DNA of 64,000 nucleotides, taken from NCBI RefSeq assembly GCF_900520355.1, contig NZ_LS999521.1:3162001-3226000 (forward strand). Reading direction: 5' to 3'. This document shows, piece by piece, positions 1-15,193 of this stretch. The notes beneath the pieces are model-generated. The model was not told the origin of the DNA. It ran no database searches and saw only the letters and a program-made list of their open reading frames with translations. This DNA comes from Acinetobacter calcoaceticus. Its GTDB lineage: Bacteria; Pseudomonadota; Gammaproteobacteria; Pseudomonadales; Moraxellaceae. The translations under genes and the position numbers were made by a program. Within the stretch, counting starts at the first letter, position 1. Every line of letters starts with the position of its first letter.

Positions 1-2900
1 GAATCGCTGTCGCTGTCAGAGTCACTGTCAGAATCAGAGTCGCTGTCAGAATCAGAGTCACTGTCGCTATCAGAGTCGGAATCGCTGTCAGAATCAGAGT
101 CGCTGTCAGAGTCAGAATCGCTGTCAGAGTCCGAGTCGCTGTCAGAGTCAGAATCGCTGTCAGAGTCCGAGTCACTGTCAGAGTCCGAATCGCTGTCAGA
201 ATCAGAGTCACTGTCGCTATCAGAGTCGCTGTCAGAATCAGAGTCGCTGTCAGAGTCAGAATCGCTGTCAGAGTCCGAGTCACTGTCAGAGTCCGAATCG
301 CTGTCAGAATCAGAGTCACTGTCGCTATCAGAGTCGGAATCGCTGTCAGAATCAGAGTCACTGTCAGAATCAGAGTCGCTGTCCGAGTCAGAATCGCTGT
401 CAGAGTCAGAATCGCTGTCAGAATCAGAGTCACTGTCGCTATCCGAGTCGCTGTCAGAGTCAGAATCGCTGTCGCTATCCGAGTCAGAATCGCTGTCAGA
501 GTCAGAATCACTGTCCGAATCAGAATCGCTGTCAGAGTCCGAGTCACTGTCAGAGTCAGAATCGCTGTCAGAGTCCGAGTCACTGTCAGAGTCAGAATCG
601 CTGTCGCTGTCAGAGTCACTGTCAGAATCAGAGTCGCTGTCAGAGTCAGAATCGCTGTCGCTATCCGAGTCGCTGTCAGAGTCAGAATCCGAGTCGCTAT
701 CAGAGTCAGAGTCGCTGTCCGAGTCCGAATCGCTGTCCGAATCAGAATCGCTGTCCGAGTCAGAATCGCTGTCCGAATCAGAATCGCTGTCCGAATCAGA
801 ATCGCTGTCAGAGTCAGAATCACTGTCAGAATCCGAATCGCTGTCGCTATCCGAGTCAGAATCGCTGTCCGAGTCAGAATCACTGTCAGAGTCAGAATCG
901 CTGTCGCTATCCGAGTCAGAGTCACTGTCAGAGTCAGAATCGCTGTCAGAGTCCGAGTCACTATCAGAATCAGAGTCGCTGTCCGAGTCCGAATCGCTAT
1001 CAGAGTCCGAATCGCTATCAGAGTCCGAGTCACTATCAGAATCAGAGTCGCTGTCCGAGTCCGAATCGCTGTCCGAATCAGAGTCGCTATCCGAGTCAGA
1101 GTCACTGTCAGAGTCCGAGTCGCTGTCCGAATCAGAATCACTGTCAGAATCCGAATCGCTGTCGCTATCCGAGTCACTGTCAGAATCCGAATCGCTGTCG
1201 CTATCCGAGTCAGAATCGCTGTCAGAGTCAGAATCACTGTCAGAATCAGAGTCGCTGTCAGAATCCGAATCGCTGTCGCTATCCGAGTCAGAATCGCTGT
1301 CAGAGTCAGAATCGCTGTCAGAGTCAGAATCACTGTCAGAATCAGAGTCACTGTCAGAATCCGAATCGCTGTCGCTATCCGAGTCACTGTCAGAATCCGA
1401 GTCGCTGTCCGAATCAGAGTCACTGTCCGAGTCCGAATCAGAGTCGCTGTCCGAATCAGAATCACTGTCCGAATCCGAATCGCTGTCCGAATCCGAGTCA
1501 CTGTCAGAATCCGAATCGCTGTCGCTATCCGAGTCACTGTCAGAATCCGAGTCGCTGTCAGAGTCAGAATCGCTGTCGCTATCCGAGTCGCTGTCAGAGT
1601 CCGAATCGCTGTCCGAATCAGAATCGCTGTCAGAGTCCGAATCAGAGTCGCTGTCGGAGTCAGAATCGCTGTCGCTATCCGAGTCGCTGTCAGAATCAGA
1701 GTCGCTGTCAGAATCAGAGTCACTGTCAGAGTCAGAATCGCTGTCAGAGTCCGAGTCACTGTCAGAGTCCGAATCGCTGTCGCTATCCGAGTCGCTGTCA
1801 GAGTCAGAATCCGAGTCGCTGTCAGAGTCAGAATCGCTATCCGAGTCAGAATCGCTGTCCGAATCAGAATCGCTGTCAGAGTCAGAATCGCTGTCAGAGT
1901 CCGAATCGCTGTCGCTGTCAGAATCGCTGTCAGAGTCCGAGTCGCTGTCAGAGTCAGAATCGCTGTCAGAGTCCGAGTCACTGTCAGAGTCCGAATCGCT
2001 GTCGCTGTCAGAGTCGCTGTCCGAATCAGAATCGCTGTCCGAATCAGAATCGCTGTCAGAGTCAGAATCGCTGTCAGAGTCCGAGTCACTGTCGCTATCA
2101 GAGTCCGAATCGCTGTCAGAGTCAGAATCACTGTCAGAATCAGAGTCGCTGTCCGAATCCGAGTCACTGTCCGAATCCGAGTCACTGTCAGAATCAGAAT
2201 CACTGTCAGAGTCCGAGTCGCTGTCCGAATCAGAATCGCTGTCCGAGTCGCTGTCCGAATCAGAATCACTGTCCGAATCCGAATCGCTATCAGAGTCCGA
2301 ATCGCTGTCAGAGTCAGAATCGCTGTCGCTATCAGAGTCCGAGTCGCTGTCCGAATCAGAATCACTGTCCGAATCAGAATCACTGTCCGAATCAGAATCA
2401 CTGTCAGAATCAGAGTCACTGTCAGAATCCGAGTCGCTGTCCGAATCCGAGTCGCTGTCAGAGTCAGAATCACTGTCAGAGTCCGAGTCGCTGTCCGAAT
2501 CAGAATCGCTGTCCGAATCAGAATCGCTGTCCGAATCAGAATCGCTGTCCGAGTCGCTGTCAGAGTCAGAATCACTGTCAGAGTCCGAGTCGCTGTCCGA
2601 ATCCGAATCGCTGTCAGAGTCGCTGTCCGAGTCAGAATCGCTGTCAGAGTCCGAGTCACTGTCAGAGTCAGAATCGCTGTCGCTGTCAGAGTCGCTGTCC
2701 GAATCCGAATCGCTATCAGAGTCCGAGTCACTATCAGAATCAGAGTCGCTGTCCGAGTCAGAATCGCTGTCCGAATCCGAGTCACTGTCAGAGTCCGAAT
2801 CGCTGTCGCTGTCAGAGTCAGAATCGCTGTCAGAGTCCGAGTCACTATCAGAATCAGAGTCACTGTCAGAGTCAGAATCGCTGTCCGAATCAGAGTCGCT
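1..2900 (-). repeat. Ser-Asp coding repeat tract (6-bp periodicity, at least 2.9 kb)
   Basis: Hexanucleotide-periodic DNA encoding (Ser-Asp)n. Every second codon is GAT or GAC. The serine codons seen are AGC, AGT, TCT, TCG and occasionally TCC; I saw no TCA. Higher-order units of 12 to 30 bp recur in shuffled order, which points to growth by unequal recombination as well as slippage. The reading frame holds across the whole tract. The tract runs off the window, so its full length is unknown. Such a tract is prone to length change and to assembly collapse. Confidence 0.95.
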
Positions 2901-3347
2901 TTCTAAACTATTATTTTTATCGCTGTCATGAGCCCACCACAAAATTCCTGCTGCGGTTAGTGGTACAGATAACCATGCCCATGGAGATGCAGCACCATCA
3001 TGATAAAGCAATGGTTCAATACTATCGATATAACTATAAGTGATATGGTCTAATAAGACCCCATTACTGTCAGTAAACTGTACCCACAGTAATTTATGAT
3101 TATTATCTTCAAAAACTAAACTATTATCGGTTGAATAATTACCACCATTAAAGAAATCAATTATTACTATTTGCTCACCGTTTTTTAAAGTAATAATTGC
3201 ATTTCTACCGTCTTGTCTAATTTCAAAAACATCATCTTTATTTACTTTTATTAAAATAACTGATGCTTCGGAAAGAGTGACTGTATCCTTTGTCGTAGTT
3301 TCTAAGGTTTCATGACTATCCTTAGAAACTACCCTTATTTCAGACAT
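1..3347 (-). CDS. Giant serine-aspartate repeat protein with Bap-like N-terminus, T1SS substrate (5' part)
   Basis: Partial gene; the 3' end lies beyond position 1. Translation from the ATG at 3347, with AAGGGG as ribosome binding site, gives a 149-residue N-terminal region starting [16 protein letters not shown]. It resembles the prefix domain of Acinetobacter Bap-type proteins: a beta-rich part (about 1-115), a [14 protein letters not shown] motif, then a hydrophobic [17 protein letters not shown] segment. From residue 150 the sequence is only Asp-Ser dipeptides for 966 residues, with no frame slip seen. The upstream same-strand genes encode a complete LapB/LapC/LapE-type exporter, so a cell-surface adhesin with a C-terminal secretion signal (outside the window) is the likely identity. 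Family membership is recognised by eye; the adhesive function is inferred. The repeat is highly acidic and expected to be disordered. Confidence 0.85.
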
Positions 3348-3675
3348 ATTTATTCCCCTTCTCAGGATTATTTAATTAAACCAATCCAATTTAGAGCTCT
3401 TAAATTTTATTAAATAAGAAGAGCCCAAATTAAGGGATAAATTAGATAAAACAAGGGCCAACCTCAACGCATAATTTAATTATAAACATGAATTACGTCA
3501 CAAAAAAATAGCAAAAAGAAGTTTATTTATTAACCAAAATAAAACCAAAATTATTAATTATTATTTTTCAAAGAATTAGAATCAAATTAAAATAAAAATA
3601 TGCTTTTAATATTTTTATGTTTTAAAACACAAACAATAAAAACCACACATTTAAAACAAGATATTATCTCGATTA

Positions 3676-3717
3676 ATATCTATATGGTTTTTAAATATTT
3701 AAAAGCCATATAGATAT
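3676..3717 (-). terminator. Hairpin between hlyD-like gene and adhesin gene
   Basis: Arms near TATCTATATGG and CCATATAGATA with an A/T-rich centre form a long imperfect hairpin directly after the stop of the adaptor gene. There is no clean U-run after it on the minus strand. It could be a leaky terminator, an attenuator or an RNA-processing site that separates exporter dosage from adhesin dosage. The rest of the 378-bp gap (3348-3725) is very A/T-rich; I see no gene in it and could not pick a reliable promoter. Confidence 0.4.
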
Positions 3718-3725
3718 ATATTTGT

Positions 3726-4922
3726 TTACCTTTCTCTTAAAGCTTCTTTGGCTTTATTAAATGGTTTAAGCAAGTAATCCAGTACCGTTTTTTGACCAGT
3801 ACGAATATCTACCGTTGCTACCATACCCGGTGTAATACCGTATGCCTTACCTTGTTTATTATAAAGCTTGTCAGAATCTGTCCGGATATAAACACGATAA
3901 TAGAATTGGTCTTGTTTAACCTCATCACGAATCGTGTCTGGTGAAATAACCGTTACCTTACCTTTTAAACCACCATAAATTGAGTAGTCATAAGCAGTAA
4001 TCTTAACCAGCGCTTCTTGTCCCGGACGAATAAATGCAATGTCACGCGGTAAAATACGCGCTTCAATCAGCAGCTGCTCATCAATTGGAACAATGGTCAT
4101 CAACTTACCGTTTTGGGGAATAACACCACCATGGGTAGTGACCGCAATTTCTTTTACAACACCACGTACCGGCGCTTTAAAAATGGCACGATCTAAGCTG
4201 TCAGTACGCCCCAGCACAACTTGTTGCTGCGTTTCAATATCGGTATTGGCTTTTGATAACTCTTCACGAGCCTCCACGAAATACTGGTTCTGCACATCAT
4301 TCATTTTATTTCTAAGGTCGTTTGCTTCACGACGTAAACGTAAAACTTCAACCTCACTGGCTGCACCTTTAGCAACCAACGGTTCGGTCATTGCCAGTTC
4401 TTGTTGTACCAGTTGCAATGCCTGCCTAAAACCTGCAAGTGTTTGTTCGAGATTAGCTCTGCGGGATGCATATAATGCCGTTTCTTCATATACAAGTTTT
4501 GGTTCTTTCAGCACAATTTCAGGAAAAGCCAATGGTGTTCCATTTACTTCCGCCCGCAAACGTGAAGCTGTTGCCTGAGCAGAAATAAGCAAAGATCTTG
4601 ATTCACCGACATTCGATGCAAAACGGGTTGGATCTAATTGCGCAAGAATTTCACCTTTTTGAACAATATCGCCTTCTTGTACATTCAGTTTGGTTAAAAT
4701 ACCACCTTCTAAAGACTGGATGACCTGCTCTTTAGACGATGGAACTACTTTACCGGTGCCGGTAGACACTTCTTCAAGTTTAAATACCCATGCCCAGATA
4801 AAGAAAATAACTAAACCAATCCCCACAATCCAGATCACTAAACTGGCACGGGGTAACGGTGGTTCACTATAAGAGACATTCATTGAACGGGTGAGTTCTT
4901 GTTCTTTTTGTGGTTCGCTCAT
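3726..4922 (-). CDS. T1SS periplasmic adaptor (HlyD/LapC family)
   Basis: 398-residue membrane fusion protein. It has a cytoplasmic tail, one membrane helix at about residues 26-46 (ASLVIWIVGIGLVIFFIWAW), a lipoyl-like half motif (GGILTKLNVQEGDIVQKGE), a long alpha-helical hairpin of about 140 residues and a C-terminal beta-barrel part ending near the last 30 residues. Such proteins bridge the inner-membrane ABC exporter and the TolC-like channel. The start overlaps the stop of the ABC gene by 4 bp (ATGA), so the two are translationally coupled. Its position immediately before the giant SD-repeat gene makes that protein the likely cargo. Confidence 0.93.
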   Translation of the reverse strand: MSEPQKEQELTRSMNVSYSEPPLPRASLVIWIVGIGLVIFFIWAWVFKLEEVSTGTGKVVPSSKEQVIQSLEGGILTKLNVQEGDIVQKGEILAQLDPTRFASNVGESRSLLISAQATASRLRAEVNGTPLAFPEIVLKEPKLVYEETALYASRRANLEQTLAGFRQALQLVQQELAMTEPLVAKGAASEVEVLRLRREANDLRNKMNDVQNQYFVEAREELSKANTDIETQQQVVLGRTDSLDRAIFKAPVRGVVKEIAVTTHGGVIPQNGKLMTIVPIDEQLLIEARILPRDIAFIRPGQEALVKITAYDYSIYGGLKGKVTVISPDTIRDEVKQDQFYYRVYIRTDSDKLYNKQGKAYGITPGMVATVDIRTGQKTVLDYLLKPFNKAKEALRER

Positions 4923-7060
4923 GAATTACCCCCTTGGTTTACTTGTTTTTGCTGGGCTGTTGATTGGTTAAGGACCTGATCTCTTGGACCATCCATCACG
5001 ATTTTGCCTTCGTTAACGACAATAATACGGTCCACCAGTTCTAAAACAGCTCGGCGGTGTGTCGCAACGACCAAGGTCCGATGTGCCAGCCATCCTTTTA
5101 AATGATCAATCAGTTGCTTCTCTGCCACATCATCAATGGATGCTGTCGGTTCATCGAGTAATAAAATATTAGGTTGACGAATCAATAAGCGAGCCAATAA
5201 CAATGCTTGTTTCTGGCCACCTGAGAAACCAACCCCACCTTCTAAAATCAGGTGATCTAGTCCTTCTTTTTTCTCTTGCACAAAAGGTAATGCACCTGTC
5301 ACTACTAAAGCCCGAAGAATATCTTCATCCGTTGCAAGTGGTGCACCTAAAGTCAGGTTCTCACGAATCGTACCGTAGAAAAGTTGTGCATTCTGGTTGA
5401 GTAAACCCATATCACGACGTACATCAGATGGGTCAATTAAAGAAAGATCCAGACCATCTAAATGTATGGCACCTTGAGTTGGGACTTGCATGCCAGATAG
5501 AAGCTGAAGCAGGGTCGATTTACCAGCCCCATTGCGTCCCAGAATTGCAATTTTTTCACCAGCACGAATTTTTAAATGACGAATTGCCAAACTTGGTTTC
5601 GGGTCTTCTTCTCCATATTGGAACAAGACATTTTTTAATTCATAGTCACCATTTAAAGCAGCTTTATGTACCAGATGTGAATGGTCAGCCTGATCGATCG
5701 GACGTTGCATGAGTTCATCCAGACTTTGTTTAGCAACTTTCGCCTGCTGTAAACGTCCTAAAACACCCGTAATTTGTGCAATCGGCCCTAACATTCGTGA
5801 AGATAAAATTGAACAGGCCACTAAAGCACCCGTAGTCATTTCACCCTCCATTACCGCAAAACATCCAACCAGAACCACAATCGCATAGGTCAGACCCTGA
5901 AGCATTTGAGTCCATGACATTAAGGTACCGACAATTTTACGCTGTCTCATCCCAATATCGGCTGAAACTTCGTTCATGTGGTTCCACTGGTTCTGGAAAC
6001 GCGATTCGGCACGCAATAGCTTGATATCTTCAATACCCTGTACCGCTTCAACCAGAATTGCGTTACGGATTGAAGATTCTCTCATACCTTCCTGTGCAAG
6101 TTGCGCTAGCTTTTTCTGCACCAGAATACCCGGCAAAATCATAAGCGGAACAACCAGCAACATCACCCAGAACAGCTTGCCGCCAATGATGGCAAAGATG
6201 ATCAGGAACAGGAAAAAGAATGGGAAATCTGCAATTGCACTAATGGTGGTTGAAGTCACCAGTTCACGAACACCTTCGAGTTCACGAATCTGGGAAATAA
6301 AACTACCGGTAGACTTTGAACGGTCTTTATTCTTGATTCTTAAGGCATGACCAAATACACGGTCAGAAACCCGTAAGTCAGCACGTTTACCAATAATGTC
6401 GGATAAATACACCCTTGATATACGTAAGGTAAACTCAAAAATAGCAGCAATGAGTACACCACCTGCCAGAACCCATAAAGTCGGGATGGACTGCGATGGA
6501 ACAACGCGGTCATAGACTTGCATTGAGAAAATAATGGTTGCCAGTGCCAATACATTGGCAATGAGTGAGGCAAACATAATATCAACGTAACGCTTCCAGT
6601 CTCTTAGAACAATTGACCAGAACCAGCTTGCTTCATACGGTTTGATATATTCATCAATACGTGCATCGGGAATAGAGGTTTCAGGACGCAGAATATAGAC
6701 ATTCTTAACCTTATCTTTTAAAGCACCTAAAGAGACATTCTGCGAAAGCCCTTGATCTCCACTAAACTGGATACTGACATTTCCTTGGGTATCTGCTTTA
6801 TCAATAACACCGACTTGCCCGTCATTAAACTCGACCAGAACAGGTAGCCGCCACGGATTAAGTAAATCTAATGAAAAAGGCACTTTACGTAAATTTAGTC
6901 CAACTTGACGTGTCATTAACTGTAAAACATCATCAAGGTTTTGATTCTGGTTCCAGTCAAGTTGTAAACGGATTCTTTCTTCTGAAGGCTCAATTCGATA
7001 ATGTTTAGCAATCGTTAAGACCGACTGTAACCAGGGCTGGTAGTTTATTTTTGTCATCAT
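4919..7060 (-). CDS. T1SS ABC exporter with degenerate C39-like domain (LapB family)
   Basis: 713 residues. The N-terminal 130 residues match a C39-like domain but contain no cysteine (the first Cys is residue 400), so it cannot act as a leader peptidase. This is usual for exporters of Bap/LapA/RTX adhesins, which carry C-terminal signals. Transmembrane helices span about 155-425. The ATPase has Walker A GRNGAGKST (508-516), signature FSGGQ (612-616) and Walker B ILLLDE (632-637). It overlaps the neighbouring genes on both sides by 4 bp and is the energy-coupling part of the secretion operon. Confidence 0.95.
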   Translation of the reverse strand: MMTKINYQPWLQSVLTIAKHYRIEPSEERIRLQLDWNQNQNLDDVLQLMTRQVGLNLRKVPFSLDLLNPWRLPVLVEFNDGQVGVIDKADTQGNVSIQFSGDQGLSQNVSLGALKDKVKNVYILRPETSIPDARIDEYIKPYEASWFWSIVLRDWKRYVDIMFASLIANVLALATIIFSMQVYDRVVPSQSIPTLWVLAGGVLIAAIFEFTLRISRVYLSDIIGKRADLRVSDRVFGHALRIKNKDRSKSTGSFISQIRELEGVRELVTSTTISAIADFPFFFLFLIIFAIIGGKLFWVMLLVVPLMILPGILVQKKLAQLAQEGMRESSIRNAILVEAVQGIEDIKLLRAESRFQNQWNHMNEVSADIGMRQRKIVGTLMSWTQMLQGLTYAIVVLVGCFAVMEGEMTTGALVACSILSSRMLGPIAQITGVLGRLQQAKVAKQSLDELMQRPIDQADHSHLVHKAALNGDYELKNVLFQYGEEDPKPSLAIRHLKIRAGEKIAILGRNGAGKSTLLQLLSGMQVPTQGAIHLDGLDLSLIDPSDVRRDMGLLNQNAQLFYGTIRENLTLGAPLATDEDILRALVVTGALPFVQEKKEGLDHLILEGGVGFSGGQKQALLLARLLIRQPNILLLDEPTASIDDVAEKQLIDHLKGWLAHRTLVVATHRRAVLELVDRIIVVNEGKIVMDGPRDQVLNQSTAQQKQVNQGGNS

Positions 7061-8589
7061 GGTTGTACTTCGAACCCCTGAATTGAAATATTATTTAAGC
7101 CATAGGCTTGGCGGGAACGTCCTGTTGCCGAAATGTACTGAATAATACTGTTATAGATGTCATAACGTGCTGATTCGAGTTCTGAATTGGCACTATGAAT
7201 GGCCTGTTCTGCATTCAACAAATCGACCAATGAACGTGTCCCGAGCTTGTACTGCTCTTGATAAAGTTCACGTGTACGAACGGTTGTTGCCTGACGATTA
7301 GTCAGCACCTGCATTTGACGTTGTTTATTTTCAATTTGCTCACGGCTGGTTCTGATCTGGTCAAGAACATCCAGATAAACTGAATTGACCTGAGATTTAG
7401 CTGCTTCTTCGGCATAGCTTGCCATTTTGACCTGAGAAGAAACTGCGCCACCTTGATAAAACTGACTGCTTGCTTCAAGCATGACGGAACTATATAGACC
7501 GTCATCCTTATCATTGTTTGGATTTCTGCCGTTAATGGCCTGACTTAAGGACCCTTTTACCGCCAAAGTCGGATACCGACTCAGTCGAGTCTGTTCCTTT
7601 TGTGCCTTGGCAACTTCCACACCCGCTTGAGCAGCAATCATTTTTGGGATGGTATTGAATTCAGGCTCACTATAGAGACCAGATTGCTTCACCAAATCAT
7701 CAGGAATGACCCATACTTTATTAAAAACATCGACTCCTACCAGAGTTCTTAGATGTTGTTGGTACTGACGTAATAAGGATTGCTGAGCAATTAGTGTTGA
7801 TTGTGCAGATTCTAAATATGTTTGTGCCTGAACTGGATCAGCTTGGCTACTAATGCCTGCATTTGCACGTAAATTAGCAATGTCCTGAATTTGTTGAATA
7901 CCTGCAATTTGCTGCTCGGCAATTTTATTTAATTGAAGATAGCGCTGAATATTGACAATCGATTGCGCAACATCAAGTGCAATATCATCAATACTGACCA
8001 GCACATTGGCCTGCTCAACCTGAACCTTAGCCTGCTGAACCGATACACCTGATTTTACTTTGCCAAAATCAAAAAGCATTTGAGTTGCAGATAACGTGAG
8101 TAACTGTCTCCCCCGCTCACCACTACTCAAGTCACCTGTACTGATACCACCTGAAAGCTGGGGATAATAACCTGCCTTGGCAAAATCAATACCCGCGTTT
8201 TGGCCAGCTAAAGTTGAAATGGCTTGAGAAATATTAGGGTTTCGTTGAACTGCATATTGAATCGCATCAATTAAACTGACTTGATTGTTCCACATCGCAG
8301 TAGATGTTGGTAAATAGTTCCCATCATTTTCTAGCCGTTGAAATTGGCTCTGATCAAACCCTAAATTGCTTAATTTTTGAAAATCGACAGATCGGTAGCT
8401 TTCATCTGGCGTGGGTTTAAAGAGTTGAGAAACTTTTTTTGTTAAGCTTTTTCCTGAGTTAACAGACGCGGTATCTGCCTTTGTAATTGATATTGATACA
8501 CTAGAAGCAATAAAAAAAAATATAAAAAACTTCGTACCTGATCTGATTATAAGTTGGAAATCATTGTGGAAAAAAGGCAATTTACTCAT
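7057..8589 (-). CDS. T1SS outer membrane channel, TolC/LapE family
   Basis: 510 residues. An N-terminal hydrophobic stretch (about 20-35, TKFFIFFFIASSVS) is a signal sequence preceded by an unusually long n-region. The body shows the two-fold TolC pattern of coiled-coil and strand segments, for example DAIQYAVQRNPNISQA near the start and NAEQAIHSANSELESARYD near the end. It is the first gene of the secretion operon; the next gene begins within its stop codon. No strong Shine-Dalgarno is visible before the ATG. A more downstream start inside the signal sequence is possible but less likely. Confidence 0.92.
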   Translation of the reverse strand: MSKLPFFHNDFQLIIRSGTKFFIFFFIASSVSISITKADTASVNSGKSLTKKVSQLFKPTPDESYRSVDFQKLSNLGFDQSQFQRLENDGNYLPTSTAMWNNQVSLIDAIQYAVQRNPNISQAISTLAGQNAGIDFAKAGYYPQLSGGISTGDLSSGERGRQLLTLSATQMLFDFGKVKSGVSVQQAKVQVEQANVLVSIDDIALDVAQSIVNIQRYLQLNKIAEQQIAGIQQIQDIANLRANAGISSQADPVQAQTYLESAQSTLIAQQSLLRQYQQHLRTLVGVDVFNKVWVIPDDLVKQSGLYSEPEFNTIPKMIAAQAGVEVAKAQKEQTRLSRYPTLAVKGSLSQAINGRNPNNDKDDGLYSSVMLEASSQFYQGGAVSSQVKMASYAEEAAKSQVNSVYLDVLDQIRTSREQIENKQRQMQVLTNRQATTVRTRELYQEQYKLGTRSLVDLLNAEQAIHSANSELESARYDIYNSIIQYISATGRSRQAYGLNNISIQGFEVQP

Positions 8590-8866
8590 TAGAAGATCTA
8601 ATCTCTTGAAATATTGTAAAACAATCCAAAACTCAGTTAAAAATTATCAAAAATATTAAATTCCATACTTTAAATAAATAATTTTCAGAATAATTTTCTT
8701 AGCAAAAAAATAAAGCAAAAAATGATTAATTTTTAACAATAGAAACTAAACATTTAATTTACTTATAATTTAAATTATAAAAGTGAGTTTTAAACACATA
8801 TATTTAAAACTAATTAAACACCTATAAAAACTATAAAATTCAATTATTAGAATAAATAATTTCCAT

Positions 8867-8898
8867 AAAAAAAACCTACCTCTTGGGGAAGTGGTAGG
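8867..8898 (-). terminator. Rho-independent terminator upstream of the T1SS operon
   Basis: On the minus strand a CCTACC...GGTAGG stem, extended by an inner CTT/AAG part with one mismatch and a CCCC loop, is followed by eight T residues. It isolates the secretion operon from transcription coming from higher coordinates. Confidence 0.8.
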
Positions 8899-9052
8899 CT
8901 ATAAACTCTAATATATATACTTCTTCAAAAATATATTATTTATTTAAATTCATCAATAAGGATTAATTTAAAATAAAATTAAAACATATAATTAAAACAC
9001 ATCAAAAAAATAAAATATTTTCTATTTATTTTAGAGCACATGTGTTGTGCTT

Positions 9053-9080
9053 AAAAAAGGTTGCCAATAGTAACCCTTTT
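9053..9080 (-). terminator. Weak terminator after TetR remnant
   Basis: Imperfect AAAGGGTT / AACC-TTTT hairpin followed by T residues on the minus strand, about 35 bp after the stop of the TetR remnant. The stem is short and interrupted, so this is tentative. Confidence 0.35.
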
Positions 9081-9112
9081 ACATTGGCATCTTTATACAA
9101 AATATATGATCT

Positions 9113-9490
9113 TTATGTGAGATCTAAATAGCCAAATACAGCCTTTTCAACTCGCTGCTGTAAATGTTTTAAATCACGTTCCCCTGCTATGCCTGCCGCG
9201 TTAATCGTTCCTTTGCTTAAAGCAATTACATCTTGTGCGGCTGTCTGAGCGTGTGGCATACCAGAACGAATAAACAGATCAGAAATGATGGTCTCAAGCT
9301 CATGTTGAAGCTCGCTTTCCTCAAAGTCTTTTCCAATCAGTTCAGAAGCAAATTCTAGTGTTCGTGCCAACTGTGGACGACTCAATTGATGTTGCACAGC
9401 AGCCTGTATGATGAGCTTTAGTTTTTCCTTTAAATCTGCGGCGTCGTGTAGAGTACGAAAGTTGTTTATAAAAGAAGCACGATAAACCTT
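9113..9490 (-). pseudogene. TetR/AcrR-family regulator remnant (C-terminal ligand domain only)
   Basis: The open frame runs from just after an in-frame TAG at 9491-9493 to the TAA at 9113-9115. It reads KVYRASFINNFRTLHDAADL and continues into QHQLSRPQLARTLEFASEL, which is the C-terminal domain pattern of TetR-family regulators. The helix-turn-helix expected about 45 residues upstream is not present in this frame, and upstream sequence does not resemble it. A GTG at 9395-9397 could start a 94-residue product, but this would lack the DNA-binding domain. The divergent alpha/beta hydrolase is the likely former target. Confidence 0.65.
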
Positions 9491-9531
9491 CTAAATGTCA
9501 TAATTTTTAAGTGAAGTACCTATATCGTTAC

Positions 9532-9560
9532 CATAAGTATGTAAGTTTACAATGCTTATG
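9532..9560. promoter_or_regulatory. Inverted repeat, possible former TetR operator
   Basis: Arms CATAAGTATGTAA and TTACAATGCTTATG are inverted copies that differ by one indel. It lies between the TetR remnant and the divergent hydrolase, where a TetR operator would be expected. Confidence 0.4.
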
Positions 9561-9766
9561 AATTTAGCTTACGTTAATAAATGAAGAGCCATTATTATTG
9601 AAAAAGGAAATTTATTGGCATCCTTCATTTCTATATTCAGCATGATGTATTTGAAGAATATTAAAAGCAAAACACAATTGAAATAGTATAAAGCTTAACT
9701 AGTTTCTACACTGAAAAAATCATCTATCTGTGTCGTCCAACGTATGCTTTATTTAGGAATGACTCA

Positions 9767-10732
9767 ATGAAAAAGAAATTATTTTTCAGCACTATTGGCC
9801 TCACAATCTTGATTGGTGCGGGTCTATTTATCGATCGAGATACTAATCCATTGAGTCATTATACATCTGATACAGGCAAGCTAAAATTTAAAAGAGCTTA
9901 CGATCGAGCAATGGCGAACTTGCCCACGCCCAAAAAAACACTTGACCTAAAGACATCATATGGCACGGTTCGAGTTTATTATTTTGATAGTGGCAAGAAT
10001 ACAAAAGAACCCTTTGTACTACTACCGGGCCGATCAGCATCTACACCCATGTGGAGCCCAAACCTTGCGGGTTTATTAAAGAGTCGTTCAGTCTATACCG
10101 TCGACTTAATCAATGAAGCCGGAATGAGTAAGCAAACTAAAGCGATTACCAACGCTGAAGATCAAGCAAAATGGCTAGATGAAGCACTGACTCAATTGCC
10201 TGAGAGTAAGCTTCATCTTATAGGTGTATCTATTGGCGGTTGGACAGCAACTAACTATGTCGTGCACTTTCCCAATAAGGTAGCAAGTCTTAGTCTTATC
10301 GATCCTGTATTTGTATTTGATAATATTCCGCTGACCACAATCCTCATCTCAATTCCAGCATCAATTACTGTGATTCCAACACCTATACGCAATTATATGC
10401 TGAGCTATATTTCAGGAGGAGCCACGGTCAAAGCAGATGACCCCGTCGCGCAGCTCATTGAAACAGGGATGCATACGTTCTCAGTCAAGACACCAACACC
10501 AACACGGATTAGTAAAGAACAATTAAAACGTATCGATATCCCCGTCTTTGCTTTGATGGCAGGTCGCAGTGTTATGAATGACTCTGAAACTGCCGTTTCC
10601 AATGCGCAAGAGAGCCTAAAGAAAGGTACTGTAGATATGATTAAAGATGCTTCACATGCAATCAACGGAGAGTATGCTGATGAAGTAAATACCAAGATCA
10701 TTCACTTTGTAGATACCGTAGCACCTATGTAA
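9767..10732 (+). CDS. Membrane-anchored or secreted alpha/beta hydrolase
   Basis: 321 residues with an N-terminal hydrophobic helix (about 5-21) after a MKKK start, either a signal peptide or an anchor. The alpha/beta-hydrolase core shows the nucleophile elbow GVSIGG with Ser155 and a C-terminal His297 (DASHAINGEY). The acid residue is probably Asp268-272 region or Asp179 and is not settled by eye. It is probably an esterase or lipase-like enzyme with unknown substrate. A divergent TetR remnant suggests it was once controlled by that regulator. AGGA lies about 13 bases before the ATG. Confidence 0.85.
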   Translation: MKKKLFFSTIGLTILIGAGLFIDRDTNPLSHYTSDTGKLKFKRAYDRAMANLPTPKKTLDLKTSYGTVRVYYFDSGKNTKEPFVLLPGRSASTPMWSPNLAGLLKSRSVYTVDLINEAGMSKQTKAITNAEDQAKWLDEALTQLPESKLHLIGVSIGGWTATNYVVHFPNKVASLSLIDPVFVFDNIPLTTILISIPASITVIPTPIRNYMLSYISGGATVKADDPVAQLIETGMHTFSVKTPTPTRISKEQLKRIDIPVFALMAGRSVMNDSETAVSNAQESLKKGTVDMIKDASHAINGEYADEVNTKIIHFVDTVAPM

Positions 10733-10749
10733 TATCTTGCCTCTCATAA

Positions 10750-10986
10750 ACAAAGATTACTCAATTGAGGAAGTACCCAACTGTAAAAATTCGCTGGTAT
10801 GACGTTGAGACGTTTAGTACTAAAGCGAGTGATATTGCTGTGTTTGAGACGACATCTCTGCAAGATTATTATTTTGTGATTGATGCGATTCGAGACTCTG
10901 AGTTTTGCACAGTGCCCTACTTTGAGTTTGTAGAGATTATTCCAGCCATTGAGGATGGGTATGTGGAGTATGAAAGTTCTTTATAG
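10750..10986 (+). pseudogene. Orphan fragment of an unrecognised protein
   Basis: Open frame after a TAA at 10747-10749, with no ATG; the first usable start is TTG at 10765. It ends in an acidic tail ([15 protein letters not shown]). Composition ([22 protein letters not shown]) looks like real protein, small and acidic as in many immunity proteins. I do not recognise the family. The lack of a start and its position next to an Imm26-like gene suggest a decayed fragment. Confidence 0.4.
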
Positions 10987-11069
10987 AAGTTCCAGACGAC
11001 CTAATTTTTTCGCACGACCAGTAGATAATCTAGTCATAAGCATAATAGAGAGGGATATAACATTAACTT

Positions 11070-11576
11070 TTACTCAAAATCAGGATATACAAAATCGTAT
11101 TTCCCTGTTTTTATACGTTTTACAATATCATAAGGATTAATAACTACTCCAATTTCTGCTTTACGATTTTCTCCCTCTAATCTCCCTACACGAGTAAAGT
11201 CATTATCATTTATATGCCATACATACCAATTTTCAGATACTTTAATCTTCTCTGCACCAACTTGTGCTCCATAGTCATTCGTATCCCGAAAAAGAATATT
11301 AAAAAGATCACCAATTTCACTGGTATTTCCAACTTTTTCCCATAAGTTCATTTTTAGTCCAAGCTTAGTCACGCAATGAGCATAAAACTCTACTTCACCA
11401 TTTACGATTTCCAATAAATCAATATCAGTTTCCAATGGGTATATTTTTTTAAAGACCCTAATCACATCACTATTTAGTTGAGTTAAATCAAAAGCAATCA
11501 ATTGAAAATATTTTTTCTTATCATTGTCTACTTTAACAACAAAAATATCACCGATCTTGGTGTTTTTTCTTATCAT
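11070..11576 (-). CDS. Imm26-like immunity protein candidate
   Basis: 168 residues from the ATG at 11576; an in-frame TTG at 11588 is less likely. The opening KIGDIFVVKVDNDKKKYFQL fits the pattern of Imm26-type immunity proteins, which begin with a GD-F-V-P/K-strand motif. No signal peptide or membrane segment is visible. No toxin gene is adjacent, so it would be an orphan immunity gene, as left behind by turnover of contact-dependent or type VI toxin modules. The family call is from a short motif only. Confidence 0.45.
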   Translation of the reverse strand: MIRKNTKIGDIFVVKVDNDKKKYFQLIAFDLTQLNSDVIRVFKKIYPLETDIDLLEIVNGEVEFYAHCVTKLGLKMNLWEKVGNTSEIGDLFNILFRDTNDYGAQVGAEKIKVSENWYVWHINDNDFTRVGRLEGENRKAEIGVVINPYDIVKRIKTGKYDFVYPDFE

Positions 11577-11704
11577 TTTCGATTCCAAACTTTTCCCAAT
11601 ATTTCGGGCTAATTGATTTTCTACTTCAGTAGTATACTGCCACTTTGTCCAAGACTAAACTGATTAATTAAGCTCCTCCCCACTTGAGCTAATCAGGCAA
11701 CTCC

Positions 11705-12181
11705 TCATAAAAAATTCAATTTCAATCTTTTAGCCTCCGCTTCATCCCCATACCACCACACAGGTATATCCTTGATCTTGGCTGACATTTCCTCATTTAC
11801 TCCCTGATCTTTATCTAATAAAGGATCGTCTCCATTTTGGTACCTTGGCGTAACTATATTATTTATAAATAAATCATAAGTTTGTTGATGGCAGTTCGGA
11901 CAACAGGGTAAAGATTGTAAAAAGCGTTTTAGGTTATTTTGATAATACTCTCTATAAAGTGGACCGCTATCTGGGATATCTGTAGCATCCTCATTTAAAA
12001 TAGGATCATTACGTCCAGTGATCCATACAATCGTATGGCAATTTGCGCATTGTCCACCCATCGCTTCTGAAGAATGGTAATGAGCAGGTGGAATAAATAA
12101 TATTCCTTTGTGCTCGAATCCCTTTTGATACCATGCCCCTATATTTAACTGACTTGCTGCGACTTGGCATAAAGTTCTCAT
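11705..12181 (-). CDS. Zinc-ribbon-like hypothetical protein
   Basis: 158 residues with two Cys pairs, CANC (about 45-48) and CCPNCH (about 92-97), which could form a zinc knuckle. A strong AAGGAG precedes the ATG. It follows the TetR gene by 35 bp on the same strand and may be co-transcribed with it. I do not recognise the family and assign no function. Confidence 0.7.
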   Translation of the reverse strand: MRTLCQVAASQLNIGAWYQKGFEHKGILFIPPAHYHSSEAMGGQCANCHTIVWITGRNDPILNEDATDIPDSGPLYREYYQNNLKRFLQSLPCCPNCHQQTYDLFINNIVTPRYQNGDDPLLDKDQGVNEEMSAKIKDIPVWWYGDEAEAKRLKLNFL

Positions 12182-12216
12182 TATTTTCTCCTTTTTAGAA
12201 TGGATTTATTTAGTAA

Positions 12217-12786
12217 CTATTTAATCTTAACAGTATTACCCCTCCCCCAAAACCTTTCCAATACCATATCCCTTTCTTCCACACTATATGAACTCAACAC
12301 TTTTAGCATCAAGCCATCAATTAGGTTTAAAACCATGTTTGCATCGGGTTTGAGTGTGTTGTTTTCCAGACTAAAGACCAGATCAAAAAGCTCTCGTAGT
12401 AGCCATTTTCGATATTCAACGGCCATGCGGTAAGCCGTTGGATAAAGCAGTTTTATTTCAAAAATAGCCTTAAACAAAAGGTGGTAAAGGCTATTTACAT
12501 CGACATGTAAACGGACAATTTCTTTGAGTTTATCGGTTTGGCTTGCGTAACGGTGTGAATAGACAATTGCCAGTACTTCTTCTTTCAGTCGGCTTTTTTG
12601 AAAACTTATACACGTTTCTATGAGCTTCTCTTTGGAGTGAAAGTAGTTATAAAGCGTAGCTTTCGGAATTTTAGTTTCTTTGGCAATTAGGTCTACTCCT
12701 GCATTATGGAATCCATGCGTCGTAAAAAGTTGGATGGCGGTTTGAACAACCTGTAATTTTTTGGAAGATATTTCTAAAGTTGGCAT
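12217..12786 (-). CDS. TetR/AcrR-family transcriptional regulator
   Basis: 189 residues. Residues about 9-56 form the TetR helix-turn-helix (VQTAIQLFTTHGFHNAGVD, then IPKATLYNYFHSKEKL). The C-terminal part is a helical ligand-binding domain of unknown specificity. The zinc-ribbon gene lies 35 bp downstream on the same strand. The region upstream is a 650-bp gene-poor stretch with a phage-like RNA element, so the natural target is not obvious; autoregulation is likely. Confidence 0.9.
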   Translation of the reverse strand: MPTLEISSKKLQVVQTAIQLFTTHGFHNAGVDLIAKETKIPKATLYNYFHSKEKLIETCISFQKSRLKEEVLAIVYSHRYASQTDKLKEIVRLHVDVNSLYHLLFKAIFEIKLLYPTAYRMAVEYRKWLLRELFDLVFSLENNTLKPDANMVLNLIDGLMLKVLSSYSVEERDMVLERFWGRGNTVKIK

Positions 12787-13050
12787 AGTTTTACCGTTTT
12801 AAATTCTTGTTGTTTCTAAATGAGATAAAAAGCCTGTGCCCTTTCTGGGAGAAAAAAAGGCACAGCAAAGCAGCAAGATGGTGCTTAGCGCATCTCAAGT
12901 TCTATTGTTGATATAAGTTTTTAGTCGTGACGAGCTAAAGCTTTAAAACGTATTTTCAATTAAACAGTTTTAAAGATGAGCTAAACGATATTGGAATAAA
13001 AGGCTTGGCAATGGCTGCCAATAAAATAGAAATGTTGCGCATGAGCGACT

Positions 13051-13243
13051 CCTTAGGTAAAAGAAGTCCTACCGCATTACTGTCAAATAATGGTGGTAGA
13101 ACGAAAGAGGGTTGACAGACTGAACCTAAGAATCAGCACACCCGAGGGTGTCCCCCTTCCGTCCTACCGCAACAAAAAGGGGGACGAACGAGTCTACATT
13201 AAAAAAACAAATTTTTTCAATGTCTTAGGTTCTGGCCTGTCAA
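13051..13243 (+). ncRNA. Structured segment resembling phage C4/CI antisense RNA with target sites
   Basis: TTGACAG (13112-13118) and ACCTAAGA (13124-13131) are complementary to TCTTAGGTTC and CTGTCAA at 13223-13243. The same complements recur upstream as CTTAGGT (13052) and CTGTCAA (13080). Between the arms lie an ACACC/GGTGT hairpin (13138-13151) and a GTCCCCCTT/AAGGGGGAC hairpin (13150-13185). GTCCTACCGCA occurs twice (13066 and 13161). One antisense core with complementary sites on both sides is the layout of C4 of phage P1 and CI of satellite P4. No prophage genes surround it. The GTG-initiated ORF across it (13090-13359) is not convincing, and a 34-residue ATG ORF at 13011-13115 could be a leader peptide. 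Confidence 0.5.
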
Positions 13244-13404
13244 AGCCAACTGGCAATGTAGGCCAGCAGGCAAAGGATAATCCGAGAGTTGGTAGGTGTC
13301 AATGTAGCTTTTATGACAAGTATTTAAATTTATTATTATTTTTCATTAGATTAACTTAATTATTATTTTAGATATTATATTTAATTGTATTTTTAAAGTT
13401 AGAG

Positions 13405-13423
13405 AGAAGCGATCCGTGCTTCT
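13405..13423 (-). terminator. Possible terminator of the mes operon
   Basis: Stem AGAAGC/GCTTCT with a 7-base loop, 50 bp after the flavin reductase stop. There is no strong U-run on the minus strand, so it is tentative. Confidence 0.35.
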
Positions 13424-13473
13424 TGATTTCTTATTTAAGCTTTTAATATGAGAGTACAAAGCGGAAAGTTAGT

Positions 13474-13965
13474 TTAGACAATCTCAGTCTGCCCCACTTG
13501 GTGATAAGCACGATTAAAATAAACCAAACTTTGGTCATGCTGGCTTTGTTTAATCGCAACAATCGGACAAATAAGAATAGTATGCGTGCCGACTTGTTGA
13601 ATTTGATCAATCTCGCAATCGAAACTGACCAAAGCATCATCTAACACAGGTGAACCTGTTTCTAACTCAATCCATTCGCCATGTTTAAAGCGTTCTTCTG
13701 GTGTGAGCTTAGATGAAAATGCTTTTGAAATATGTTCGTGGTGTGCGCCTAAAACATTCACAGTTAAGATTTTGTTATCTAGGAAATGTGCATGTGAACT
13801 CGCAGATTGGTTCATACACACCAATAATGTCGGTGGTGTGTCAGTCACACTACAAACAGCAGAGGCAGTAAATCCAAAACGACCAGACATGCCTGCCGTA
13901 GTCACAACACTAACCGCACTTGTGAGTAAAGACATTGCATTTCTAAAGTCTGTTGCTTGAACCAT
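13474..13965 (-). CDS. Flavin reductase (RutF/HpaC-like)
   Basis: 163 residues from the ATG at 13965, which has AGGAA 11 bases upstream. A longer frame to 14118 exists, but its first 51 residues are not family-like and it fills the gap to mesD. The FMN-binding flavin reductase-like fold is shown by FRNAMSLLTSAVSVVTTAG, FTASAVCSVTDTPPTLLVC and HAHFLDNKILTVNVL. The enzyme would use NAD(P)H to reduce flavin. Location after mesX-mesD suggests it supplies reduced flavin to that oxygen-dependent reaction; this is inference. Confidence 0.88.
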   Translation of the reverse strand: MVQATDFRNAMSLLTSAVSVVTTAGMSGRFGFTASAVCSVTDTPPTLLVCMNQSASSHAHFLDNKILTVNVLGAHHEHISKAFSSKLTPEERFKHGEWIELETGSPVLDDALVSFDCEIDQIQQVGTHTILICPIVAIKQSQHDQSLVYFNRAYHQVGQTEIV

Positions 13966-14152
13966 GACATTATTCCTAAATTGAATCGTACCTTGTCCTG
14001 AGTGTTTGCTATACCGCCCAACTCCATCAGGAAGGTACTTAATCAACATACGTCCTGAGTAGAACGACATGTAGTAAGTAAAATGAGGGTTACTTGTTTG
14101 ATTATCAACTGCCATCAAAAAAGTAACCCTTTATACCACTTATTGGTAAATA

Positions 14153-15193
14153 TTAAGCAGTAAGATCAAAACCAGTAAGTTCTCTGCGAACAATTTCTGC
14201 ACCAGCACTTAAAGCATTTAACTTGCCACGTGCAACTTCACGAGAAAGAGGTGCCATACCGCAGTTTGTGCAAGGGTAAAGCTTATCTGCATCTACAAAC
14301 TGAAGTGCTTTACGTAGTGTGTTAGCCACTTCTTCTGGTGTTTCAATCTGGTTAGATGCAACATCAATCGCGCCGACCATGACTTTTTTACCGCGAATGA
14401 GTTCAAGTAAATCGATAGGCACATGTGAGTTGTGACATTCTAACGAGATGATATCGATGTTAGATTTTTGCAGTTTCGGGAAAGCTTCTTCGTATTGGCG
14501 CCATTCCGAACCTAGAGTCTTTTTCCAGTCGGTGTTGGCTTTAATGCCGTAACCGTAGCAAATGTGGACCGCAGTTTCACATTTTAGACCTTCAATTGCA
14601 CGCTCTAAAGTCGCAACGCCCCAGTCATTTACTTCGTCAAAGAATACGTTAAATGCAGGTTCGTCAAACTGAATGATGTCTACACCAGCAGCTTCTAACT
14701 CACGCGCTTCTTGGTTCAAAATTTTAGCAAATTCCCAAGCAAGTTTTTCACGGCTCTTGTAGTGACCATCGTAAAGCGTATCAATCATGGTCATTGGGCC
14801 AGGTAACGCCCACTTAATGGGTTGATCAGTTTGTTGACGTAAGAACTTAGCATCTTCAACAAACACAGGTTTTTGACGAGAAACAGCACCCACAACAGAC
14901 GGCACGCTTGCATCGTAACGGTCACGAATTCGAACTGTTTCGCGTTTCTCAAAATCTACGCCATTTAAGTGTTCAATAAACGTGGTCACAAAGTGTTGGC
15001 GGGTTTGTTCTCCATCGCTGACAATATCAATGCCAGCAAGTTGTTGTTCGTGCAACGCCAAACGTAACGCGTCTTTTTTACCTTCAATCAGGCCTTCGTT
15101 TTCGAGTTTCCAAGGCGACCAAAGCTTTTCAGGTTCTGCAAGCCAAGATGGTTTTGGTAAGCTGCCAGCAGTTGAAGTCGGTAATAATTTCAT
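14153..15193 (-). CDS. mesD: Folate-independent methionine synthase MesD
   Basis: 346 residues covering only the C-terminal catalytic domain of cobalamin-independent methionine synthase (MetE); the N-terminal folate domain is absent. Zinc-binding residues are visible: His210 and Cys212 (HICYGYG), and Cys308/Cys311 (YPCTNCGMAPLSR). The homocysteine-site motif IQFDEPAF is at 174-181. Published work on Acinetobacter baylyi showed that MesD makes methionine without methyl-folate and needs oxygen and MesX. The gene stands 21 bp after mesX on the same strand, followed by a flavin reductase, the same order as in other Acinetobacter. The methyl donor is not deducible from sequence. Confidence 0.92.
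   Translation of the reverse strand: MKLLPTSTAGSLPKPSWLAEPEKLWSPWKLENEGLIEGKKDALRLALHEQQLAGIDIVSDGEQTRQHFVTTFIEHLNGVDFEKRETVRIRDRYDASVPSVVGAVSRQKPVFVEDAKFLRQQTDQPIKWALPGPMTMIDTLYDGHYKSREKLAWEFAKILNQEARELEAAGVDIIQFDEPAFNVFFDEVNDWGVATLERAIEGLKCETAVHICYGYGIKANTDWKKTLGSEWRQYEEAFPKLQKSNIDIISLECHNSHVPIDLLELIRGKKVMVGAIDVASNQIETPEEVANTLRKALQFVDADKLYPCTNCGMAPLSREVARGKLNALSAGAEIVRRELTGFDLTA

Follow-up and report, generated by a model that had tools for sequence, protein, structure and literature searches.

Organization of the adhesin locus

The studied locus lies on the one-contig chromosome of Acinetobacter calcoaceticus (GCF_900520355.1, NZ_LS999521.1; genome G000, 3,934,114 bases) and extends past position 1 of the window, i.e., the whole stretch of 64,000 nt that was analyzed (positions 3,162,001-3,226,000 of the forward strand, C1:3162001-3226000). 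Families were assigned by Pfam and NCBIfam profile scans judged against curated cut-offs. The window contains the following features:

7057..8589, minus strand: TolC-type outer membrane channel, LapE-like (TIGR01844, 236.3 bits; cut-off 225.15)
4919..7060, minus strand: LapB/LssB-type ABC exporter (TIGR03375, 864.4 bits; cut-off 693.1)
3726..4922, minus strand: LapC/HlyD-type membrane fusion protein (TIGR01843, 336 bits; cut-off 208.65)
3676..3717, no strand: 19-pair palindrome in the gap between the lapC-like and adhesin genes, also a self-inverted match
1..3347, minus strand: open reading frame of the giant adhesin, 5' portion, with 5,103 bp more beyond window position 1
2970..3347, minus strand: BapA_N, adhesin residues 1-126 (Pfam PF22783, 148 bits, cut-off 27; NCBIfam NF033677, 71.5 bits, cut-off 35)
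1..2900, minus strand: Ser-Asp tract, portion in the window (966 of 1,984 residues; translation of the open reading frame)

A sequence-only reading of the window had described TolC-like, LapB-like, and LapC-like genes followed by a Bap-type gene with at least 966 Ser-Asp residues, and had interpreted them as a self-contained secretion operon. The observation is confirmed, as all four genes lie in this order on the minus strand with family scores above the cut-offs, and the window portion of the tract is exactly 966 residues. The interpretation is partly supported. Since 378 bp, including the palindrome, separate the lapC-like gene from the adhesin start, a transcript shared with the adhesin gene is only putative. 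The ABC exporter, HlyD-type adaptor, and TolC-type channel, each scoring above its cut-off, constitute an LssB/LapB-type I secretion system; a second copy of the exporter, 94% identical, is located at 2.56 Mb.

The adhesin gene is intact. It occupies C1:3156897-3165347 (8,451 bp) with a single stop codon at the end, and its 2,816-aa product consists of residues 1-149, the Ser-Asp tract (150-2133), and a 683-aa C-terminus closed by a type I secretion target domain (TIGR03661, 56.1 bits; cut-off 17.6). The protein further carries the common C-terminal end of BAPs (NF045619, 258.7 bits; cut-off 180), two RTX-like nonapeptide matches, and one weak Ig-type match in the C-terminus (Big_9, 28.3 bits; cut-off 23.6). 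Extension past position 1 thus recovered the full gene, and the early stop lacking a C-terminal secretion signal, which the earlier reading had considered, did not occur. By eye, the N-terminus shows no Sec signal, and the last 40 residues contain no LPXTG-type end. The earlier reading was right in placing a Bap-type protein with Sdr-like repeats next to genes for type I export.

With its BapA-type N-terminus, a Ser-Asp tract replacing Ig-like modules, and the BAP C-terminal end, the adhesin belongs to the beta-type BAPs. The combination of BapA_N with a type I target, and of neither a Sec signal peptide nor LPXTG, excludes it from the staphylococcal Sdr proteins. The match to the ABSDF2314 family of large adhesins (NF045618) spans nearly the whole model and remains below the cut-off (607.6 vs. 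975 bits), which makes the adhesin a relative and a non-member by the cut-off rule.

The tract comprises 992 Ser-Asp dipeptides (1,984 residues) with zero exceptions. Its DNA is an 18-bp minisatellite with 80% identity at a lag of 18 bp and 10 different Ser-Asp hexamers; 1,167 of 5,934 tract positions differ at this lag, and the protein is still Ser-Asp throughout. Only 18% of the possible single changes in the tract are silent. Since the DNA repeats diverge while the protein stays constant, and few silent changes are available, the purity of the tract is not a matter of chance.

A putative modification cassette downstream of the adhesin gene

Past the window, six more AT-rich genes on the same strand lie downstream of the adhesin gene (coordinates in L004):

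13128-14783, minus strand: U552 (AGE-epimerase-like)
12399-13121, minus strand: hexapeptide acetyltransferase
11601-12392, minus strand: S11-like
10552-11598, minus strand: ATP-grasp
9027-10538, minus strand: SdgA/B-like glycosyltransferase
8087-9070, minus strand: metalloprotease-like

The locus is therefore not self-contained in the sense of the earlier reading, which missed this cassette. The GC content of the cassette is 24-31%, compared with 39.7% for window positions 9001-64000, and together with two resolvase-like genes nearby its AT-richness suggests that the locus is on a genomic island. A hydrophobic N-terminus is absent in five of the six cassette proteins. None of the six cassette and three export proteins was named SecA2/SecY2 or Asp1-3 by Pfam or NCBIfam.

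The characterized relatives nearest in sequence to the cassette glycosyltransferase are SdgA/SdgB; identity to the staphylococcal enzymes is about 25%. By the NCBIfam rule it is neither of them (200.9 and 183 bits; cut-off 800), these models being of the 'exception' type and built for the staphylococcal enzymes. The fold predicted over its whole length is of the SdgB/TarM type, and the predicted ten-stranded insertion and the catalytic Arg, Lys, and Glu (numbering from the available part of PMC8561734) assign it to the SdgB/TarM/GtfA group, i.e., GT-B with a DUF1975 insertion.

Linkage of the enzyme to dipeptide-repeat adhesins

The SdgA/B-like enzyme was found in 29 places in 175 Acinetobacter genomes. 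In 23 of the 29, part of a BAP-type adhesin is on the same contig, and a dipeptide tract is present in 17 of the 18 places with a readable repeat region. The converse fails, as three Acinetobacter genomes have long Ser-Asp adhesins without the enzyme. Dipeptide tracts occur in none of the eight complete open reading frames of Ig-type BAPs, taken from loci picked for absence of the enzyme. The enzyme is linked to an adhesin in all four Enterobacterales loci considered, and in one of these it is fused to another cassette protein. In genome G624 it is fused to U552 inside the row of exporter genes of a Ser-Asp adhesin. Among Gammaproteobacteria-linked sequences, the enzyme turns up again in three branches, where its neighbors differ. 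U552 itself accompanies BAP genes in 58 of the 175 Acinetobacter genomes.

Proposed function and alternatives

We consider it probable that this beta-type BAP locus, with its type I export genes and cassette, is one in which the glycosyltransferase modifies the serines of (Ser-Asp)992 in the cytoplasm before export. Support at the sequence level comes from the adhesin with its predicted secretion domain, the export genes, the catalytic residues of the glycosyltransferase, and its linkage to dipeptide-repeat adhesins across genomes. The enzyme would transfer sugars to the tract serines, presumably from UDP-GlcNAc, as SdgB does. Because the type I signal is C-terminal, the adhesin chain would be complete before export; this, along with the five cassette proteins having no hydrophobic N-terminus, points to modification preceding export of the glycoprotein to the cell surface. 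Tailoring of the glycan may be the task of the acetyltransferase, U552, ATP-grasp, and S11-like enzymes. The modified adhesin would form a long stalk, coated with glycan and resistant to proteases, that keeps BapA_N at a distance from the cell. More tentatively, with the odds slightly against it, the locus may represent a Gram-negative pathway of the Sdr-Sdg type, in which a modular cassette including a secreted metalloprotease places a tailored glycan on nearly a thousand serines of a single cytoplasmic chain, a dedicated type I system replaces accessory Sec in exporting the finished glycoprotein, and strains change their coat by swapping cassette genes.

The tract could instead be a bare acidic stalk exposing the N-terminus, the cassette being an island passenger or having another target. 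The enzyme-free Ser-Asp adhesins of three genomes and the foreign-like composition of the cassette would agree with this, and the available part of PMC4647330 reads beta-BAP repeats as a spanning stalk. We regard it as unlikely, given that the enzyme predicts the tract in nearly every readable place, that retention of a passenger is not expected in three branches with differing neighbors, and that the G624 fusion lies within the exporter gene row. Rather improbable, too, is a TarM-like enzyme acting on a surface polysaccharide, whose proximity to the adhesin would reflect joint use in biofilms and no substrate relation. VIA gives 39.0 for TarM and 35.9 for SdgB, i.e., TarM is equally close or closer; the fold and insertion domain are shared with TarM, and databases name relatives of the enzyme poly(glycerol-phosphate) alpha-glucosyltransferase. 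By sequence comparison, however, SdgB is ahead of TarM by 64 bits, polysaccharide genes are absent among the six cassette genes of the A. calcoaceticus locus, and the tight link is to dipeptide-repeat adhesins, not to the Ig-type BAPs of the enzyme-free loci.

An assembly artefact in tract length or open frame is scarcely credible. Assemblies of relatives do break or carry runs of N at the tract region, but here the chromosome is one contig, the frame is open over 8,451 bp, exact repeats of 150 bp are absent from the tract, and single-contig or complete-looking genomes have similar tracts (948 Ser-Asp dipeptides in G141; 1,105 in G021).

If beta-BAPs are indeed glycosylated by an Sdg-like enzyme, one solution serves two very different export routes, and a glycosyltransferase family named only generally in databases acquires a substrate. 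It would then become a testable question whether a chain with sugars on every second residue fits through a type I exporter and its TolC channel. The analysis also draws attention to U552 as an unstudied BAP companion.

Comparison with known systems

The sequence-only reading had regarded the combination of Ser-Asp repeats and type I secretion as unusual, but precedents exist. The pair of protein and exporter is already described in the available part of De Gregorio et al. 2015 (PMC4647330), where beta-type BAPs (ABSDF785, ABSDF2314, and others) have, as here, a BapA N-terminus, a long Ser-Asp tract in place of Ig repeats, a type I C-terminus, and adjoining lapEBC; two of them carry 501 and 701 Ser-Asp repeats, compared with 992 here. 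The same source names Klebsiella KPN_00994 and Enterobacter ST548_p6177, which likewise are Ser-Asp-rich adhesins beside lap genes, and a K. pneumoniae protein with 424 Ser-Asp copies appears in part of PMC3324548. The main-text parts of PMC4647330 make no mention of a glycosyltransferase cassette, and the literature searched reports no glycosylation-type genes beside a beta-BAP.

In staphylococci, according to parts of PMC3794999 and PMC8561734, SdgA and SdgB O-glycosylate the Ser-Asp repeats of adhesins; glycosylation shields the repeats from host protease and is a major antibody target (PMC3794999). The locus resembles this system in its Ser-Asp repeats and in a neighboring glycosyltransferase with the predicted SdgB fold and the catalytic Arg, Lys, and Glu (PMC3794999, PMC8561734). 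Sdr proteins, however, have a Sec signal and LPXTG end, whereas the ends here are BAP-type and the export genes type I. Moreover, staphylococci have the SdgA/SdgB pair, whereas a single Sdg-like gene is present here.

The streptococcal accessory Sec system combines serine-rich repeat glycoproteins, a GtfA-type enzyme, and adjoining dedicated export genes, and its Asp2 protein performs O-acetylation. The likeness lies in a serine-rich repeat protein with a GtfA-type enzyme and dedicated export genes beside it, and the cassette acetyltransferase may parallel Asp2. Export in streptococci depends on SecA2/SecY2, whereas a type I exporter is found at the A. calcoaceticus locus.

The Adhesin and Its Export Genes

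The window (C1:3162001-3226000) truncates a gene that is complete on the full chromosome (one contig of 3,934,114 bp), where it spans 8,451 bp on the minus strand and encodes 2,816 aa. The coordinates of the sequence-only reading proved right on re-reading of the window, its type I export genes each score over the family cut-off, and a C-terminal type I target is present (TIGR03661, 56.1 bits, cut-off 17.6). The adhesin comprises:

residues 1-126, BapA_N
residues 150-2133, (Ser-Asp)992 tract
C-terminal 683 aa, over the cut-offs of the BapA/Bap/LapF C-terminal and TIGR03661 models

The BapA/Bap/LapF C-terminal model gives 258.7 bits (cut-off 180), and the ABSDF2314 adhesin model scores 607.6 on the adhesin, under its cut-off of 975. 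The protein has zero cysteine and 1,093 acidic residues vs. 32 Lys/Arg. An AT-rich palindrome of 19 pairs (window 3676-3717) separates lapC from the adhesin gene; it could be a terminator of the export transcript or a sign that the adhesin has a promoter region of its own.

The combination of a Ser-Asp BAP with type I export genes, which had seemed unusual, is already described in two papers (PMC4647330; PMC3324548). According to the former, A. calcoaceticus PHEA-2 and A. baumannii SDF carry, on genomic islands, beta-BAPs with a Bap N-terminus, SD tracts, and adjoining lapEBC; A. pittii has further ones, and Klebsiella and Enterobacter have SD-rich adhesins that adjoin lap genes (De Gregorio et al., 2015; PMC4647330). 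The latter counts 424 SD copies for K. pneumoniae and >80 for A. baumannii (PMC3324548). The finding as originally stated is therefore known, and what is added to it here is a probable dedicated glycosylation cassette.

The tract DNA has an 18 bp unit (80% identity at lag 18) and 10 different SD hexamers. Lag-18 mismatches occupy 1,167 of 5,934 positions (109, 109, and 949 at codon positions 1, 2, and 3, respectively), those at positions 1 and 2 being AGY/TCN serine switches, and none alters the protein. Since all of these mismatches are silent, though silent changes make up ~18% of the possible single changes in the tract, we infer that Ser-Asp is under strong protein-level selection.

The Downstream Cassette

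Beyond the window, six tightly spaced genes follow on the adhesin strand (locus L004):

13128-14783, minus, U552
12399-13121, minus, hexapeptide acetyltransferase
11601-12392, minus, S11/beta-lactamase-like protein with SVIK, SSN, and KTG motifs
10552-11598, minus, YheC/D-type ATP-grasp protein
9027-10538, minus, GT4 glycosyltransferase (SdgA/SdgB-like)
8087-9070, minus, metalloprotease-like protein (HEIFH present; weak metalloprotease match)

Their GC content is 24-31%; the export genes have 41-43%, and window 9001-64000 has 39.7%. A strongly hydrophobic N-terminus is found only in the metalloprotease-like protein (mean over 17 residues 2.56; ≤1.07 in the other five), so the other five look cytoplasmic. 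The S11/beta-lactamase-like protein has all three active-site motifs and no signal peptide, which is odd for a penicillin-binding-type enzyme. Two resolvase-like genes lie at the far side of the cassette (L004:4089-4724, minus; L004:5507-6094, plus), and because a similar gene also adjoins the A. lactucae copy (L078:6003-6644), they suggest an island border.

The top curated models on the glycosyltransferase are those of the staphylococcal O-glycosyltransferases acting on Ser-Asp repeats, SdgA (200.9 bits) and SdgB (183), followed by GtfA (134); all three score under their cut-offs. Against structures, a profile of 13 relatives ranks SdgB first, TarM second, and Gtf1 third. The predicted model can be matched along its entire length to both SdgB and TarM (Foldseek ranks SdgB first, VIA ranks TarM first); the enzyme keeps the ten-stranded insertion, and its catalytic Arg and Lys are conserved as well.

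Linkage of the Enzyme to Dipeptide Tracts

The 13-relative profile (≥215 bits) places the enzyme at 29 sites in 25 of 175 Acinetobacter genomes; the next class, at ≤146 bits and mostly a GT domain alone, has 61 places once a fragment adjoining a full-length copy is set aside. Flanks were fetched for 28 of the 29 places, the remaining one (G157:C169) starting at base 3 of its contig. An adhesin part shares the contig at 23 places: 17 have a dipeptide tract, one (G081) has none, and in five (two in G034, plus G065, G113, and G155) the repeat region is cut or has gaps. The tracts are mostly SD, with AD-rich (G173), Ser-Ala/Ser-Glu (G010, G118), and looser Ser-rich (G099) types; in G016 two enzyme copies have one adhesin in common. 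The G173 adhesin (L100/L101; 3,593 codons), whose tract opens as Ala-Asp and holds 831 mixed AD/SD dipeptides, adjoins a related glycosyltransferase and, as a substrate, would offer fewer serines. Four of the other six places (G043, G033, two in G157) fall at the end of a contig or on a short one, the second copy of G141 has no adhesin in the flanks read, and the G028 enzyme lies ~35 kb from a Ser-Asp adhesin and is surrounded by insertion sequences.

Among the matches listed, a BapA_N gene occurs in 25/25 enzyme genomes vs. 92/150 others (p = 2e-5). Under a fixed rule (listed BapA_N match ≤25 kb away on the same contig), linkage was found, among the matches listed (down to E about 6e-26) and counted by eye, for 16/29 enzyme places vs. 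2/61 next-class places (p = 3e-8).

A search for U552, which has an epimerase-like barrel, gave 69 rows in 58/175 Acinetobacter genomes, 19 of these rows being in enzyme-linked loci. From the remaining 50, 24 enzyme-less loci were fetched as controls and 19 could be judged: 13, of which 8 are complete Ig-type ORFs and 5 are split or N-gapped, lack a tract, and six have one, namely SD in G019, G021, G076, G033, and G028 and 38 AD dipeptides in G156. Tracts thus accompany 17/18 enzyme-linked vs. 6/19 enzyme-less loci (p = 1e-4; p = 0.004 with complete controls only). G033 and G028 carry the enzyme elsewhere in the genome; a profile search of G019, G021, and G076 found no full-length copy. The G021 ORF (L148/L149; 4,388 codons), with 1,105 Ser-Asp dipeptides, exceeds the adhesin studied (992); U552 and ATP-grasp genes adjoin it without an Sdg-like enzyme, and no export genes were seen near. 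Because of the long tracts in these three genomes the rule is one-way: the enzyme predicts a tract, and a tract is not always accompanied by the enzyme.

U552 also follows Ig-type BAPs and is a general BAP companion. The other BAP of the A. calcoaceticus chromosome (C1:822.8-850 kb; L128, L129) is an Ig-like 8,462-aa ORF followed by a second U552 gene. A second tolC-lapB-lapC-type set (C1:2555898-2560425; L002, L007), 94% identical over query 727-5254, has a TolC that differs at the N-terminus; reading 18 kb around this set showed no giant adhesin.

An evenly spread sample of 368 other Gammaproteobacteria gave no match to the enzyme at E 1e-50, and 394 Enterobacterales gave three, including the Winslowiella used as centre. 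All four Enterobacterales loci examined (Edwardsiella anguillarum L010, Winslowiella iniecta L019, G913, and G624) align Ser-Asp adhesin parts, TolC, LapB, LapC, and the glycosyltransferase on one strand; the Winslowiella contig opens within the tract, the G913 adhesin is split over two ORFs, and in Edwardsiella the tract is made up of short SD runs. The G624 adhesin (3,389 aa) has 1,074 SD dipeptides, counted in runs of at least 3. Downstream of it and its type I export genes, a single 1,062-aa ORF (L175:10243-13428, minus) joins a U552 part (49-567, 35% identity) to a glycosyltransferase (703-1039), with a metalloprotease-like gene next. This natural fusion within the Ser-Asp adhesin/export row is strong circumstantial evidence that the two proteins have a joint function.

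Proposed Glycosylation Pathway

Type I substrates carry their export signal at the C-terminus, and the chain is therefore complete in the cytoplasm before export. A cytoplasmic SdgB-like enzyme could load the tract with sugar at this stage; in vitro, SdgB attached as many as 59 GlcNAc to a substrate that contains 60 DSD motifs (PMC3794999). Family and position lead to two further guesses: the glycan might be tailored by U552 and the acetyltransferase, ATP-grasp, and S11-like enzymes, and outside the cell the metalloprotease-like protein might process the adhesin or free it.

The best explanation, to which we give moderate confidence, is that the enzyme glycosylates the tract in the cytoplasm before type I export. 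We propose more tentatively a dedicated Gram-negative pathway of the Sdr-Sdg type, in which a modular cassette tailors the glycan, the type I system exports the product, and strains swap cassette genes. Both readings became slightly less probable because G021 brought to three the genomes that have a long tract but no enzyme. In streptococci, glycosylated serine-rich adhesins are exported by a dedicated accessory Sec exporter, to which the type I exporter described here may be equivalent in role.
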